Shown: piece by piece, positions 2,809 to 34,065 of the stretch | How the letters are laid out: each line of letters starts with the position of its first letter | Numbering within the stretch: position 1 is the first letter of the stretch | Virus record (IMG/VR): IMGVR_UViG_3300043466_000400 | Span: 1-34,065 of that record | Reading direction: 5' to 3' (one strand) | DNA: 34,065 nucleotides | From: a virus | Notes under the pieces: model-generated | Told to the model about the DNA's origin: nothing | What the model saw: only the letters and a program-made list of their open reading frames with translations | Database searches by the model: none | Made by a program: the position numbers and the translations under genes

Positions 2809-2891
2809 TAGTCAAGGCAGGATTCAAACCTGCATCTCCTTAAGGAATGTTCTACTTATTATAGATTTTAACCTATTTACACCACTTGACT
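2809..2891 (-). tRNA. tRNA-like element, class II shape, anticodon not assigned
   Basis: On the minus strand the ends AGTCAAG and CTTGACT form a perfect 7-bp acceptor stem (8 bp if one flanking base is added). A perfect 5-bp T-arm GCAGG/CCTGC encloses TTTGAAT. The D-loop has the GG plus TTAA pattern of class II tRNAs, and TCC-TTAA-GGA could be an extra arm. The D stem is poor (GTG against AAT), and the best anticodon stem is only TCTA/TAGA around TAATAAG, which lacks U33. No CCA is encoded. It may be a decayed or unorthodox tRNA. Confidence 0.5.
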
Positions 2892-4406: not shown

Positions 4407-5204
4407 TTAATTAGTTTCAATAAATTTTTTATAGAAATTCATGTTTTTATGTAATTTTTTATGACAATTAAAACATAAAGTTAATCCATTATCTATATTA
4501 TATCTTAAATCTATATATTTAGAAAATGATTTAATATGATGAGCATGTAAATTTCCACCTATTTGTTTACATTCTTGACAAGTATAATTATCTCTTAAAA
4601 ATACATTTGTTCTCCATTCTTTATATTTATCAGATTGTCTTTCTTTTTTATTTTCATTCATTAATCCACCCTTCCAATTTGGATTATTATTTGATAAAAA
4701 AAATAATTTTTTAAATTTTGTATGACAATTTTTTGAACAAAATTTATTAGAACAATGTTTTTTAATAAATTTTATATTACATATTTTACAAAAACCTATT
4801 TTTTTTATTGATTCTCTATAACAATTAACACAATTTTTAGATTTTATATCTTTAATATTTCCACATTTACATTTTTTTTTAGGATTGTTTAATCCTTTTA
4901 TTTTTTTTAATTCTATATATTTTAAAGTATTTATATGCAATTCTCTTTTTAATCCAGTTTTAGATTTTATAGAACATACAATAGAACAATATTTTCTTTT
5001 ATAATATATATTATTTGGAATAAAATTATTGTTACAAAAATTACAAATTTGATTTTTTGGACCTCCTTTATAATTATTATTTAAAATACCAATTTTATTT
5101 TTTTGATTTAAATTTTGACATTTTTTAGAACAACAAATTCTTTTTTTAAAATGAGATGGCTTTACTTTAAATTCAATTAAACATATTTTACATATTTTAT
5201 ACAT
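4407..5204 (-). CDS. HNH homing-type endonuclease with zinc-finger repeats
   Basis: 265 residues from the ATG at 5204 ([12 protein letters not shown]). An ATG at 5228 in the same frame would lie in the terminator of the leader RNA and is less likely. The N-terminal part has repeated C-x2-C units, including [23 protein letters not shown] matches the NUMOD3 motif of homing endonucleases. The C-terminal HNH domain shows [20 protein letters not shown] and then [14 protein letters not shown]. The gene is richer in A+T than its neighbours, with long Lys/Asn/Ile runs, which suggests transfer. It sits between nuclease and sigma genes without an evident host intron. Confidence 0.85.
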
Positions 5205-5307
5205 AAAAAAAATACCAACCCAATGCAAAGGCTTATCCGACTGCTAAGAATTAGCAAAAGGCAATGCAAAGGATTGGATTTTATTAATGTTTTCATATCG
5301 GATAAGC
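5205..5307 (-). ncRNA. Leader RNA 3 with pseudoknot and terminator-like hairpin (upstream of HNH)
   Basis: Predicted minus-strand transcript from about 5307. The 5' segment GCTTATCCGA (5307-5298) is exactly complementary to TCGGATAAGC (5240-5231). Between and around these, CCAATCC (5277-5271) pairs with GGGTTGG (5221-5215) with one G-U pair, followed by TA and eight T (5212-5205). The arms interleave, so this is a pseudoknot. An internal hairpin TGCTAA/TTAGCA and an 11-base direct repeat (5221-5231, 5262-5272) lie inside. The AUG of the HNH gene follows the U8 tract directly. Confidence 0.6.
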
Positions 5308-5311
5308 GATA

Positions 5312-5342
5312 CAAATATAACTATTTATTTTCAATTATCCAA
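5312..5342 (-). promoter_or_regulatory. Bacteroidota-type promoter for leader RNA 3 and HNH gene
   Basis: On the minus strand, TTG (5342-5340), 20-base spacer, TATATTTG (5319-5312). This matches the known consensus TTG-N17-23-TAnnTTTG of the primary Bacteroidota sigma factor. The start is expected about 5 bases downstream, at about 5307, the first base of the long complementary 5' segment. Confidence 0.7.
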
Positions 5343-6906: not shown

Positions 6907-7016
6907 ATCTTATAATATTTCTTAAATAATTTCAAAGGCATAGTATTAAAATGACCATTTAACTCATAATCTACAAGAGTTACATCTTGGCTAAAGTATA
7001 TCCGTATTATTTTCAT
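6903..7016 (-). CDS. Small hypothetical protein, 37 aa
   Basis: ATG at 7016, inside the last codons of the primase-helicase gene, opens a frame starting MKIIRIYFSQDVTLVDYELN and ending in KLFKKYYKI. The stop overlaps the methyltransferase ATG as ATGA. It fills the only gap between these two large genes and couples them, which argues that it is translated. It has a mixed beta and basic helical look, with no family recognised. Confidence 0.6.
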   Translation of the reverse strand: MKIIRIYFSQDVTLVDYELNGHFNTMPLKLFKKYYKI

Positions 7017-9330
7017 TTGGATTAATTATTTGAATGAATCTTTGGCCCATTGAATCTTGGCCTTTATTAACTTCTAATTTGTAAAATGTAGCATATTTAT
7101 CAACCCATGACCAGAATCTCTTTTGAGATAAATTATACTTTTTAAAGTCAGGATACTCTTCTAAAAACACATTAAATAACATATTTTTATTTAACCTTTC
7201 TCCCTCTTTAATTGTTTCAAAATTCGCCCATTCGTAAAACTCAAACGATGTTTCTTTAATGAATTTCCTTATCTCTAAATTCTTATAATCAAATGATATT
7301 AAGCCATTCGTTAAATACATTCTAATACACATTAGCATATAATTATAAAACTTAAGCCATTCATTATAATCCCATTCGTCAAACAACATCCTGCCAAATT
7401 CGTTTAATGGTGTATGTTTAGAACTAAAATGACTGCTAAATTCAATCTCCCATTTCCTACGTTCAAATGAGCCACCAACACCTCCTACAGTATAGTTAGT
7501 AGTTATTATAATTTTAGGACTTTTTGATACCGGTATCTTTATTGCATCTTTATTCTTTTTTTCTAATGTGATACCCTCGGTAATAACACTAAATAGATTT
7601 TCAAATTTAAAGTTCTTTTGTACATCGTCAAACACTAATATTTGAGTATCAGCTGAAACAGTTTGATATGGAAATGATTTCTCAAAACTAAATGACTTAC
7701 CATTAATATCAGCAACCCTTTTTACTTTAGATAGTGCATTCCAAAATATACCCTTACCACTTCCACCATTCGGATTCTCGCTTATTGTTTCATCATTTAA
7801 AATAACTGCTTTATTATTGGCTGATGTCTTAAATGAGTGCATAAGATAGCCTAATGTAGATGTAATTGAATTAACCTTGTTACTATCGTTATTCGATATT
7901 AAGTCAATAAACTTGCTGAAATCACAATTAATATTTTCAGTTACTTTAAAATCAAAATCTATTATGTGTTTATTCCAAACAAATCCATCCAAATCAATAT
8001 AATCAATAAGTTCAAATTTATCAGATGTTACCTTAACTGCCTTGTTTTTAAAATAAATGTATGCAGTATCAATGGTATCTTCTTTGAAATGTATATTAGT
8101 TTCAGCCAGTAAGTTTAAATAATCCTCTTTAAAATACTTGGGATTAGAAGCCATGTATTCATAAACTCTATGTTCTTTGTTCTTTAATAGGTCCGCTAAT
8201 ACATAATCTTTAATTTTTACTTCTGTAGTATTATCAATAAGGTTATTAGTTACTTTAATAAATATAAATGATTCGGAGTTCTCAGGATAATATTTATAAA
8301 AGCCATTAGATTCAAGCCAATTCTTATAAAGTAAATTATCTAATATAACATTCCCTTTCTTATTGTATTTCCAAAAGTTCTGTTGATTAATTGTTTCAGT
8401 AATATCATTAAGTACATTAATATCAATACCAGGATATTTAATTAATATTTCTTTCTCAGTTGTTCCTGTTTTAATAGATTTCTTAATGTCATTAAGTTTC
8501 TCAGTATCTTCAAAATACTTCATACCAAAATTAGCCTTACCTTTAGAATATGCTGAGCGGATGGTTTTTTCTATCTCATTTCTACTAAAATCCTTTTGCT
8601 CAAACTGCAAAGAAAACCTAATACATTCTACTTCTGATACACCATAATCATTAAATGAACTTGCAAGTATAAATAGATTATTGTTTCTTTTACCAATATT
8701 CATATCATAAGACTTACAGAACCATTTATAAAGCCTTTTAATTATTTCTGATTCATTATCTAACTTTACTATTGGTGCCTGTTCTCGATAGTCATATTCA
8801 ATAAAATCTTCCTTAGCATCCCATTCTTTTGAGTTCTTATTTATAAAGATGTTGCTATCATAAGATTCAAAACATATCCGGCTAATGTTTTTAGATGTGG
8901 TATCAAAATGAGTATTGTTATAATATTTCTCTAAAGCATCAAAATACTTTTTATGGTTTTCAATGTCTTTAGGTATCTTAACAATTAATTTTAAACCATT
9001 ACCTGAAGGACTAATAAATAAAGCAAAGGTATATTTATCAACTATTAGTTTATCCCTATCTTCATTTAATAATTCTAATGATTCGTATTTGTCAAAGTCA
9101 AGGCAAATGTAACCTGAATGTTCTAATATAGCAGCATCGTTTCGCTTTGAGAATGTACCACTAAAACAGATAGCAGGTAGTTGTTTTTTAAACTCATCTT
9201 TATTGCTTTGTTGCCTAACTTGTTCAACCAGTTCCTTTGACTTACCGGATTTGATTCGTTCCAATACAAAGTCAATATCTCTAAAGAAAGGAGTATTTGT
9301 TTGTGCTAAATTTTTAAATATAGTTATCAT
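6991..9330 (-). CDS. Primase-helicase (BT4734-type primase, SF3 helicase)
   Basis: 779 residues. The N-terminal part is like the BT4734/VirE-N primase family: FSGTFSKRND, CLDFDK (76-81) and ISPSGNGLKL (106-115), a metal and nucleotide site, then DTTSKNISRICFES. Residues about 215-262 resemble a PriCT linker (RNNNLFILASSFNDYG). The C-terminal SF3-type ATPase has Walker A NGGSGKG (521-527), Walker B ILVFDDV (564-570), sensor KIIITTNY (606-613) and an arginine-finger candidate FERRK (622-626). It would prime and unwind phage DNA. It is preceded by leader RNA 2. Confidence 0.85.
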   Translation of the reverse strand: MITIFKNLAQTNTPFFRDIDFVLERIKSGKSKELVEQVRQQSNKDEFKKQLPAICFSGTFSKRNDAAILEHSGYICLDFDKYESLELLNEDRDKLIVDKYTFALFISPSGNGLKLIVKIPKDIENHKKYFDALEKYYNNTHFDTTSKNISRICFESYDSNIFINKNSKEWDAKEDFIEYDYREQAPIVKLDNESEIIKRLYKWFCKSYDMNIGKRNNNLFILASSFNDYGVSEVECIRFSLQFEQKDFSRNEIEKTIRSAYSKGKANFGMKYFEDTEKLNDIKKSIKTGTTEKEILIKYPGIDINVLNDITETINQQNFWKYNKKGNVILDNLLYKNWLESNGFYKYYPENSESFIFIKVTNNLIDNTTEVKIKDYVLADLLKNKEHRVYEYMASNPKYFKEDYLNLLAETNIHFKEDTIDTAYIYFKNKAVKVTSDKFELIDYIDLDGFVWNKHIIDFDFKVTENINCDFSKFIDLISNNDSNKVNSITSTLGYLMHSFKTSANNKAVILNDETISENPNGGSGKGIFWNALSKVKRVADINGKSFSFEKSFPYQTVSADTQILVFDDVQKNFKFENLFSVITEGITLEKKNKDAIKIPVSKSPKIIITTNYTVGGVGGSFERRKWEIEFSSHFSSKHTPLNEFGRMLFDEWDYNEWLKFYNYMLMCIRMYLTNGLISFDYKNLEIRKFIKETSFEFYEWANFETIKEGERLNKNMLFNVFLEEYPDFKKYNLSQKRFWSWVDKYATFYKLEVNKGQDSMGQRFIQIINPNENNTDIL

Positions 9331-9333
9331 AAT

Positions 9334-9422
9334 AAAAAACCCTACACCCCTCGATGTAGTGGCATCTCAGGGAATAGGGTAAAATTCTTTAGTTAATTTT
9401 ATGAGCCACTACTCATTAACTA
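9334..9422 (-). ncRNA. Leader RNA 2 with kissing hairpins (upstream of primase-helicase)
   Basis: Predicted minus-strand transcript. Hairpin I (9421-9391) has outer stem AGTTAA/TTAACT, inner stem TGAG/CTCA and loop TAGTGG. Hairpin II (9380-9339) has ACCCTA/TAGGGT, CCCT/AGGG and GATG/CATC with loop CCACTA, followed by a T run. The two six-base apical loops are perfect complements, so a kissing interaction is expected. Hairpin II looks like an intrinsic terminator, and the primase-helicase AUG is only a few bases beyond its U tract. Confidence 0.6.
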
Positions 9423-9427
9423 TTTTA

Positions 9428-9435
9428 CAAATATA
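9428..9435 (-). promoter_or_regulatory. TATATTTG promoter element for leader RNA 2
   Basis: Minus-strand TATATTTG matches the Bacteroidota TAnnTTTG element, and hairpin I begins 7 bases downstream. No clear TTG is seen 17-23 bases upstream, so the promoter is weaker by consensus or needs an activator. Confidence 0.5.
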
Positions 9436-9456: not shown

Positions 9457-9628
9457 AATAACGCATTTAACGGATTAATAACGGATTGTTTTTCGCTTTG
9501 TGTCCTTAGAACTATAAAGGTTACAACACATTAACGCTTTCACATTGGTATTTTTCAACTTTAAAAACACACCTTTAAAAAAAATTATATAAGGAGTATA
9601 GGGCCATCTCAATCCGTTAAGCGTTATT
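9457..9628. repeat. Inverted repeat and AACGGATT iterons (possible origin or operator)
   Basis: AATAACGC-at-TTAACGGATT (9457-9476) is matched in inverse by AATCCGTTAAGCGTTATT (9611-9628), 18 paired positions with a 2-base bulge. AACGGATT also occurs at 9469-9476 and 9480-9487, 11 bases apart, and inverted at 9611-9618. Between the arms lies an AT-rich stretch without a gene. The position before the primase-helicase gene suits a replication origin or operator. The right arm overlaps the stop codon of the gene at 9617. Confidence 0.5.
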
Positions 9629-9898
9629 TCTTACAATCTCAATCTCCTCACCATTGATTAATGAATAGTAAAAGTCACACATCATATCATTTAAGTCCTT
9701 GACTTGCTGAAGTTTATGGTCATCTAAATTTTTATAAATGGTTTTTACAAACTCTTCGCATGCAAATTTCAAAGCGTTAAACTTCTGTTTTTCTTGGAAT
9801 TTAAACTGCCCTAAAAAACGTGTATATTCATCTGACATGGTTAAAGCATGAGCGCAGAAGATTAATAAGGCTCTTTCTGATTTTTCTAATTCGGTCAT
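9617..9898 (-). CDS. Hypothetical protein, 93 aa
   Basis: Helical protein (MTELEKSERALLIFCAHALT at the start, FYYSLINGEEIEIV near the end), with no family recognised. The start overlaps the stop of the Gp157-like gene by 4 bases (ATGA). It is the last gene of the ERF operon before the iteron region, and its final codons form one arm of the long inverted repeat. A role in replication or recombination is suggested only by position. Confidence 0.65.
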   Translation of the reverse strand: MTELEKSERALLIFCAHALTMSDEYTRFLGQFKFQEKQKFNALKFACEEFVKTIYKNLDDHKLQQVKDLNDMMCDFYYSLINGEEIEIVRNNA

Positions 9899-10570: not shown

Positions 10571-11068
10571 TTAATTGTTTTTAATTGCTACATCTAATAA
10601 TTGTTTATACTTACTATCAATAGTATATTTATCCATTGATGCTATTACATGATTCTTTTTACCCTCATTAATTGCCTTAATCATAGATTCAAATTGCTCA
10701 GGACTTAATGTAGGTTTGGATGGCTTAATAGTCATATTAGCATCGTCATCTTCAATTTCTAATGATAATAAAGATGCTAATGTATATCTACGGAAATAAG
10801 TTATAGCACTACCCATCTGTTGTGGGTTCAATCCTGTAGGCAAATCAATATAACTTGTAGCGATTTCTTTGCCGGATTCATCGAGTAGTATTGTACCTAC
10901 TTTGCCATCCTTAATCGGTTGTAATAATACCAAACCTAAATCTGAAAGTATTGGCTTTACTTCTGATAAGATTTGTGTTAATGTTGCATAAGTGCTTTTA
11001 AAATGTGGATTCTTACCATCCTTTTTAATCGCATTTACTTTCCTTTGGAACTCTAATAATTGTTTCAT
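10571..11068 (-). CDS. erf: ERF-family single-strand annealing protein
   Basis: 165 residues with the ERF core: NPHFKSTYATLTQILSEVKP, the GLVLLQP strand, TSYIDLPTGLNPQQMGSAIT followed by YFRRYTLASLLSLEIEDDDA. These are the conserved blocks of the P22 Erf family, which binds ssDNA and anneals complementary strands during phage recombination. The C-terminal region is short. It follows a predicted SSB gene, its usual partner, but is separated from it by leader RNA 1, which has its own promoter. Confidence 0.9.
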   Translation of the reverse strand: MKQLLEFQRKVNAIKKDGKNPHFKSTYATLTQILSEVKPILSDLGLVLLQPIKDGKVGTILLDESGKEIATSYIDLPTGLNPQQMGSAITYFRRYTLASLLSLEIEDDDANMTIKPSKPTLSPEQFESMIKAINEGKKNHVIASMDKYTIDSKYKQLLDVAIKNN

Positions 11069-11079
11069 TTTTATAAAAT

Positions 11080-11171
11080 ATAAAGCCCTCTATTCTGAAT
11101 GCCAACCGCCAAGTAAAGCATAGAGAATAAAGGGCAATGTTTAAAATTAGTTTGATTCATGGCGGTTGAAT
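11080..11171 (-). ncRNA. Leader RNA 1 with kissing hairpins (upstream of ERF)
   Basis: Predicted minus-strand transcript. Hairpin I (11171-11155) is ATTCA/TGAAT with loop ACCGCCA. Hairpin II (11135-11085) pairs GCCCTTTATTCT with AGAATAGAGGGC (12 bp with one U-G), has inner stem ATGC/GCAT, and a large apical loop containing TGGCGGT, the exact complement of loop I (9 bp if flanks are included). TTTATATTTTAT follows hairpin II, then the ERF ATG at 11068. The U-G pair favours the minus strand as the RNA strand. Confidence 0.6.
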
Positions 11172-33707: not shown

Positions 33708-34065
33708 TAGTCTAAACTTATATCTTTCTCATTATTAGCTATTGGTGCATCTGACTTAATGACCTCAACTTGAATATTCTTATTAAGGTTTTCATTCTTA
33801 CTTTCTACTCTATCTGTCATTCCTAGTTTATTCTTAGCATAGAATATACCTTTGCCTTCATTTGCAACAATATCAACTGCTAAAGAGTTAAATTTATCAT
33901 CTATCTTTTTTATAGTGTCGTATTTTACCTCATTTTCGCTTTTTAACCACGTATAATAAGTGTCCCTTGATATTGTATCCTTTTTATTAAAAGGAAGCCA
34001 TATATTCAAAAAGAATGCTATTGTAGGTATATGTCTTTCTCTTTGATTAACTATCTTACCTGAGC
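33707..34065 (-). CDS. terS: Terminase small subunit, main part (5' end continues at 1..218)
   Basis: The part encoded here includes FFLNIWLPFNKKDTISRDTY, then YYTWLKSENEVKYDTIKKID, KFNSLAVDIVANEGKGIFYA and KNKLGMTDR, a helical pattern with a likely helix-turn-helix near the start, typical of Bacteroidota phage small terminases. An apparent start at 34009 is internal; joining the ends gives the true start at 218 and 149 residues. It lies directly before the large terminase with one micro-ORF between. Confidence 0.8.
   Translation of the reverse strand, partial: SGKIVNQRERHIPTIAFFLNIWLPFNKKDTISRDTYYTWLKSENEVKYDTIKKIDDKFNSLAVDIVANEGKGIFYAKNKLGMTDRVESKNENLNKNIQVEVIKSDAPIANNEKDISLD
33939..34065. 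repeat. Terminal direct repeat, right copy
   Basis: Identical to 1..127 over all 127 bases. See the left copy. It lies inside the small terminase gene. Confidence 0.95.

Follow-up and report, generated by a model that had tools for sequence, protein, structure and literature searches.

A conserved leader RNA with complementary hairpin loops, possibly a terminator-based attenuator, before the primase-helicase gene of a Bacteroidota virus

The primase-helicase gene of a virus of Bacteroidota is preceded on the minus strand by a structured leader, leader 2, which sits between the gene at 9617-9898 and the primase-helicase gene itself. Both of its hairpins and the contact between their loops exist, are conserved and covary, a U-tract follows them, and the gene contexts are clear; we consider it near certain that leader 2 is conserved as an RNA whose two loops contact each other. 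As to what it does, we lean, without great conviction, towards an intrinsic-terminator attenuator for phage early (replication) genes, a reading in which termination, the direction of the effect and a common factor are all inferred. Leader 2 apparently belongs to a family of phage leader RNAs that has not yet been described.

Anatomy of leader 2 and of two further leaders

The window analysed here is the whole 34,065-base record. A 127-base direct repeat at its two ends (1-127 and 33939-34065) makes it probable that the record is a complete genome, and it carries one tRNA gene (2809-2891, minus strand). Leader 2 runs from TATATTTG through hairpin I, hairpin II and a U-tract to the primase-helicase ATG. 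The first-pass annotation had described these elements, and checking strand and coordinates placed every one of them where it had put them. Its statement that the two 6-base loops are perfect complements is also correct; complementarity in fact extends over 8 nt (GTAGTGGC/GCCACTAC). The features are as follows.

9435-9428, minus strand: promoter-like element TATATTTG, called by position
9420-9392, minus strand: hairpin I, with outer stem GTTAA/TTAAC and inner stem TGAG/CTCA
9411-9406, minus strand: loop of hairpin I, TAGTGG (segment A)
9380-9339, minus strand: hairpin II, terminator-like, with base ACCCTAT/GTAGGGT, then CCCT/GGGG, a GA/GA internal loop and apex GATG/CATC
9362-9357, minus strand: loop of hairpin II, CCACTA (segment A')
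9339-9334, minus strand: U-tract TTTTTT directly 3' of hairpin II
9330-9328, minus strand: start codon ATG of the primase-helicase
6991-9330, minus strand: the putatively controlled gene, a primase-helicase of 779 aa with a BT4734-like N-terminal domain and PriCT-1

We take TATATTTG to be a -7 promoter element of the Bacteroidota type. Since TAnnTTTG is not enriched in the window (61 observed vs 57 expected), this call rests on position; in most relatives, segment A begins 4-15 nt after TTTG. The RNA from 9426 to 9328 folds at -31.5 kcal/mol, compared with -16.8 +/- 3.0 for shuffled versions (z -4.94; 0 of 200 shuffles as good), and the minimum-energy fold contains both hairpins.

Just upstream of leader 2 lies an array of AAAGCGTTAT/AATCCGTTAT-like repeats (9460-9545, minus strand). 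Similar arrays stand at -135 to -245 from the primase ATG in L003, L004, L006, L008 and L009, at 4-6 repeats per 330 nt where 0.1-0.3 would be expected from the locus. They are candidates for replication-origin iterons or regulator sites.

Scanning the window for upstream segments, 8 nt or longer, that are complementary to sequence inside an enclosing stem with a strongly T-rich tail returned only three sites, at 5307, 9412 and 11168. These are leaders 1, 2 and 3, with complementary segments of 10, 8 and 9 nt, respectively.

5319-5205, minus strand: leader 1, with TATATTTG, then A, hairpin II holding A', a U-tract and the ATG at 5204
5307-5298 and 5240-5231, minus strand: leader 1 segments A (GCTTATCCGA) and A' (TCGGATAAGC)
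5277-5271 and 5221-5215, minus strand: leader 1 hairpin II stem, CCAATCC/GGGTTGG
4407-5204, minus strand: gene after leader 1, an HNH endonuclease
11183-11069, minus strand: leader 3, with TAATTTTG, then A, hairpin II holding A', and the ATG at 11068
11168-11160 and 11111-11103, minus strand: leader 3 segments A (CAACCGCCA) and A' (TGGCGGTTG)
11135-11085, minus strand: leader 3 hairpin II, GCCCTTTATTCT/AGAATAGAGGGC
10571-11068, minus strand: gene after leader 3, an ERF annealing protein

The scan thus recovers the same three leaders for which an equal layout had been proposed, but the equality is incomplete: hairpin I is weak in leader 1 (TATC..GATA) and leader 3 (ATTC..GAAT), where the complementary segments are longer. 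Among 3000 shuffled leaders, 63 had two hairpins (stems of at least 4) with at least 6 complementary loop bases, and one had two loops of exactly 6 nt that were fully complementary.

Conservation and covariation in other phages

Covariation had originally been inferred from the likeness of the window's own leaders. Those three are not homologous and give no proof; orthologous leaders in other phages, by contrast, support a covarying functional RNA strongly. Our comparison sample comprised 18 loci with primase relatives, and most of those with the upstream region present show the leader-2 layout immediately 5' of the primase ATG; the letters of their loops are quite different. Rewritten loop pairs include CTGGAAG/CTTCCAG, GTGCAG/CTGCAC, AACCCGTCAA/TTGACGGGTT and TAAACGACTAAGTA/TACTTAGTCGTTTA, and the primase leader of a Bacteroidota MAG has CCTTCAC/GTGAAGG. 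The pairing score was that of the best Watson-Crick run linking a leader's first 34 nt to the hairpin segment; the script was given no loop positions. Fourteen divergent orthologous primase leaders scored on average 19.4 with themselves and 12.2 between leaders, and their self-pairing sum was not reached in any of 200,000 permutations. As a caveat, these leaders were picked by eye for layout, and the permutation takes no account of their relatedness. More distant primase relatives (about 50% identity or less) often lack the leader, and ERF relatives below about 85% identity are without it.

The leaders most like leader 2 have two fully complementary loops of exactly 6 nt, and stems that differ. 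MAFFT failed to align this group by structure, so loops and stems were compared directly. Hairpin I stems include AGTT/AACT, GGCAT/ATGCT, GGTT/AGCC and TTGCA/TGCAA; those of hairpin II include GGA/TCC, GGAA/TTCC, AGCA/TGCT, GTG/CAC, GTTG/CAAC and GGTCGCG/TGCGACC. The inner stem and loop of hairpin I covary in L004, L006, L008-L010 and L126. Loops in a second group are mostly of 8 nt, with 7 of the 8 bases paired. Both this group and that of leader 2, with its 6/6 nt, have loops shaped as in whole-loop kissing complexes. Since the stems covary along with the loops, and the loops set the limits of complementarity, a kiss of two finished hairpins is probably the functional state in the leader-2 group.

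Leader-1-type relatives have a longer pseudoknot. Their model, with 16 matches of which 10 are distinct, contains 28 pairs, those of the long-range helix among them; pairing holds in 98.6% of cells and 17 pairs show two-sided change (0/500 shuffles), with slid controls far lower. The long-range helix itself is paired in 100% of cells, with five doubly changed pairs as well as G-U exchanges. As the model was built without this helix, its pairing in newly found matches is a partly independent check. A DNA-level palindrome or origin was rejected in favour of an RNA, given the G-U exchanges, a U-tract on one strand only and the constant position ahead of the ATG.

Several further observations concern variation within the family. 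Hairpin II has internal loops with possible tandem G-A pairs (UGAA/GGAU, GA/GA, UGAA/UGAA) in L049, L079, L091, L098, L122, L008 and the window (9339-9380), possibly a site of protein or tertiary contact. In L114 and L115 (near 3001 and 2990, before the primase ATG), the inner segment of a terminator-like hairpin is complementary to sequence after the U-tract, e.g. AGACTT...AAGTCT, the mirror arrangement of the leader-2 idea. Finally, loop codes differ between the leaders of one genome, no more than chance predicts, and we draw no conclusion from this.

Termination and competing explanations

An attenuator should have, between its promoter and the start codon, a G+C-rich hairpin with a U-tract after it, as well as a conserved, covarying pairing of loop and 5' end that is connected with the terminator; both features are present. 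Of 14 primase leaders, 13 have a U-tract (at least 5 T in eight bases) after the G-rich arm, and at least 6 T in eight at -18 to -6 occur in 57% of primase leaders vs 5.5% of 127 other gene starts. Support for hairpin II and its U-tract as a terminator comes from sequence alone, and termination itself is inferred. U-tracts are interrupted in leader 3 and in most type-1 leaders. L116 (before the ATG at 2998) keeps a long pairing, AACCGACCAA/TTGGTCGGTT, without any U-tract. Termination may therefore be weak or lost in some leaders, and the element may have a role without it.

When transcripts were cut at the end of A' and folded, A:A' was formed (median probability 0.96) and the 5' terminator arm was mostly free; in the full-length leader, the terminator stem is formed (0.98) and both loops are free to kiss. 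Nothing else paired with the terminator arm consistently when the leaders were folded. There is thus no consistent antiterminator of the classical kind, and the loop contact is left as the only conserved competing or accompanying element.

In the attenuator that we favour, RNA polymerase would start just after TATATTTG and make hairpin I and then the intrinsic-terminator hairpin, whose apical loop would kiss the hairpin I loop over 6-7 bp, or form a 9-14 bp pseudoknot in the longer versions. By default many transcripts would stop at the U-tract, a few bases short of the start codon, and the kissing complex would set how often polymerase passes; the read-through direction is slightly favoured, by inference. 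From loop geometry that is kept while the letters are freely rewritten, we infer a shape-reading factor common to all leaders of a phage, which could be a phage or host protein or the polymerase itself and through which several operons would respond together. In ColE1, Rop reads the kissing shape and not the letters; by analogy, we infer that the kiss sets termination efficiency, probably via such a factor. Against the attenuator stand the absence of any experiment and of an identified trans factor, without which an unregulated cis contact is no switch, the different pairing of L114 and L115 with sequence after the U-tract, and open reading frames through hairpin II in some leaders, which suit translational control.

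Translational control is the main rival, and we rate it as unlikely but in need of serious consideration. Here the two-hairpin body, 8-24 nt before the AUG, would gate ribosome loading, or, in leader-peptide variants that share this rating, translation of an upstream ORF (uORF) through hairpin II would open or couple the gene start. Pseudoknot-controlled plasmid rep genes are a parallel for such coupling. Hairpin II does end 8-24 nt before the ATG in nearly all leaders, and some U-tracts are weak. Leader 3 (11071-11160) and leader 1 (5177-5296) have minus-strand ORFs that start beside A and cross hairpin II. In leader 3, L011, L021, L058 and L109 such uORFs end no more than about 4 nt from the gene ATG, which fits coupling; that of leader 1 overlaps the gene ATG by 28 nt. 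Bacteroidia do without Shine-Dalgarno pairing (PMC9976891), so structure near the AUG may matter more. However, a uORF is absent from most leaders and lies in a different frame in L013 and L015, so leader-peptide attenuation is rejected as a general rule; moreover, neither hairpin covers the AUG, and translational control would not account for the strong U-tract of 13 out of 14 primase leaders.

Protection or processing of the mRNA 5' end by an RNase-resistant hairpin or pseudoknot, with no switch, is improbable: it would suit segment A, which most leaders carry right at the RNA's 5' end, but requires no U-tract and no loop that contacts a hairpin immediately upstream of the AUG. Still more doubtful is the idea that the terminated leader is a trans-acting small RNA which targets leaders, its own or others, in the manner of the P4 CI and P1 c4 immunity RNAs. 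The terminated product would hold both loops, and loop codes do differ within one genome; yet cis pairing should win by proximity, the code differences do not exceed chance, and no prophage setting is apparent in the window. A metabolite riboswitch with its aptamer inside the terminator has very little to recommend it beyond the principle shown by the HMP-PP riboswitch (PMC6478431) and internal-loop motifs that recur within sub-types (GA/GA, UGAA/GGAU, UUSUGC/AAASUU), given that the family has no invariant pocket sequence, several hairpin II architectures and unrelated downstream genes.

Spread of the leaders and relation to known RNAs

We applied to 187 loci (1.85 Mb) a detector that asks for an upstream segment, its enclosed complement, a T-rich tail and an ATG. 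When a TAnnTTTG promoter and a score of 20 or more were required, 37 matches came out, vs 2 in reversed and 2 in dinucleotide-shuffled sequence; matches scoring below about 20 are largely chance. The structure search yielded 31 non-redundant leaders, a few of which (e.g. L042, L075, L142) resemble chance. Further leaders were found around homing endonucleases. Isolated, named phages that carry the leader are Flavobacterium phage mumin9-1, before the gp34 endonuclease and gp37, and Flavobacterium phage elemoF_6-3D, before gp17. A candidate in Bacteroides phage BT-TP2 was set aside for want of the loop geometry. Genes after the leaders include those for primase-helicase, ERF, a primosomal/replication-initiation protein, a ParB-methyltransferase and NUMOD4-HNH endonucleases; one downstream protein was recognised as GIY-YIG by eye only. 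The leader-1 type (window 5205-5319; L013, L054, L058, L059, L267, L279) precedes HNH, NUMOD4-HNH and GIY-YIG-like genes, and a primase in L013/L015, so leaders apparently pass from gene to gene as cassettes. The type-1 model found no host leader among 296 genomes from the order to which a Polaribacter MAG belongs, while a positive control in virus records worked; this speaks against a host-gene leader, weakly, as one sub-type only was searched.

Searches of Rfam 15 at gathering score returned only a tRNA for the window and nothing for eight related loci, and leaders 1 and 2 had no match at gathering or relaxed thresholds. Leader 3 scored 14.4 and 14.8 bits against RF01087 and RF01089 (PK-repZ / PK-repBA), below the gathering cut-offs of 44 and 45. 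These ColIb-P9 repZ and IncB/IncL-M rep leader pseudoknots likewise combine a loop pseudoknot with a leader peptide before a replication gene, but act by translational activation near the rep start. ColE1 RNAI/RNAII and TAR/TAR* also pair whole loops of 6-7 nt fully, but between two molecules, whereas the phage leaders hold both loops in one leader, one being the terminator loop. P4 CI and P1 c4 exemplify RNA-controlled termination before replication or antirepressor genes. They share with our leaders a short RNA-RNA pairing in a phage leader and, in P4, termination ahead of a primase-helicase gene, but use a trans-acting processed RNA and have no kissing terminator loop. The nearest described terminator-embedded pseudoknot before a gene is the HMP-PP (thiS motif) riboswitch (PMC6478431), which is likewise decided within a narrow transcription window. 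It has an invariant ligand pocket and one gene class, whereas the phage leaders have rewritten loops, a separate 5' hairpin partner and varied genes; no conserved ligand-binding sequence of the HMP-PP type was found in the terminator, either as an Rfam match or as a sequence common to the sub-types. In T4-like phages, hairpins in homing-endonuclease mRNAs mask the ribosome site, and a late promoter bypasses them (PMC2988022); these structured leaders also restrain homing-endonuclease expression, but without loop-loop contact or terminator. We found no description of the kissing-terminator leader layout in the open papers searched; subscription papers could still contain one.

That dozens of related viruses keep the pairing with other letters points to an undescribed gene-switch family. 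More tentatively, and with more doubt than belief, we suggest a superfamily whose loop letters can be rewritten freely, in which the terminator loop is tied by an intramolecular kiss to the transcript 5' end and one structure-specific factor would switch phage regulons and homing endonucleases from termination to read-through. Transcription timing in Bacteroidota phages is little described in the searchable literature, and a recurring, easily recognised leader offers an entry point. It predicts possible phage transcript ends and may supply natural terminators with interchangeable loop codes. In our best reading, attenuator leaders are a control device shared by phage early genes and homing endonucleases, and selfish endonucleases may have joined the phage regulon through leader exchange.
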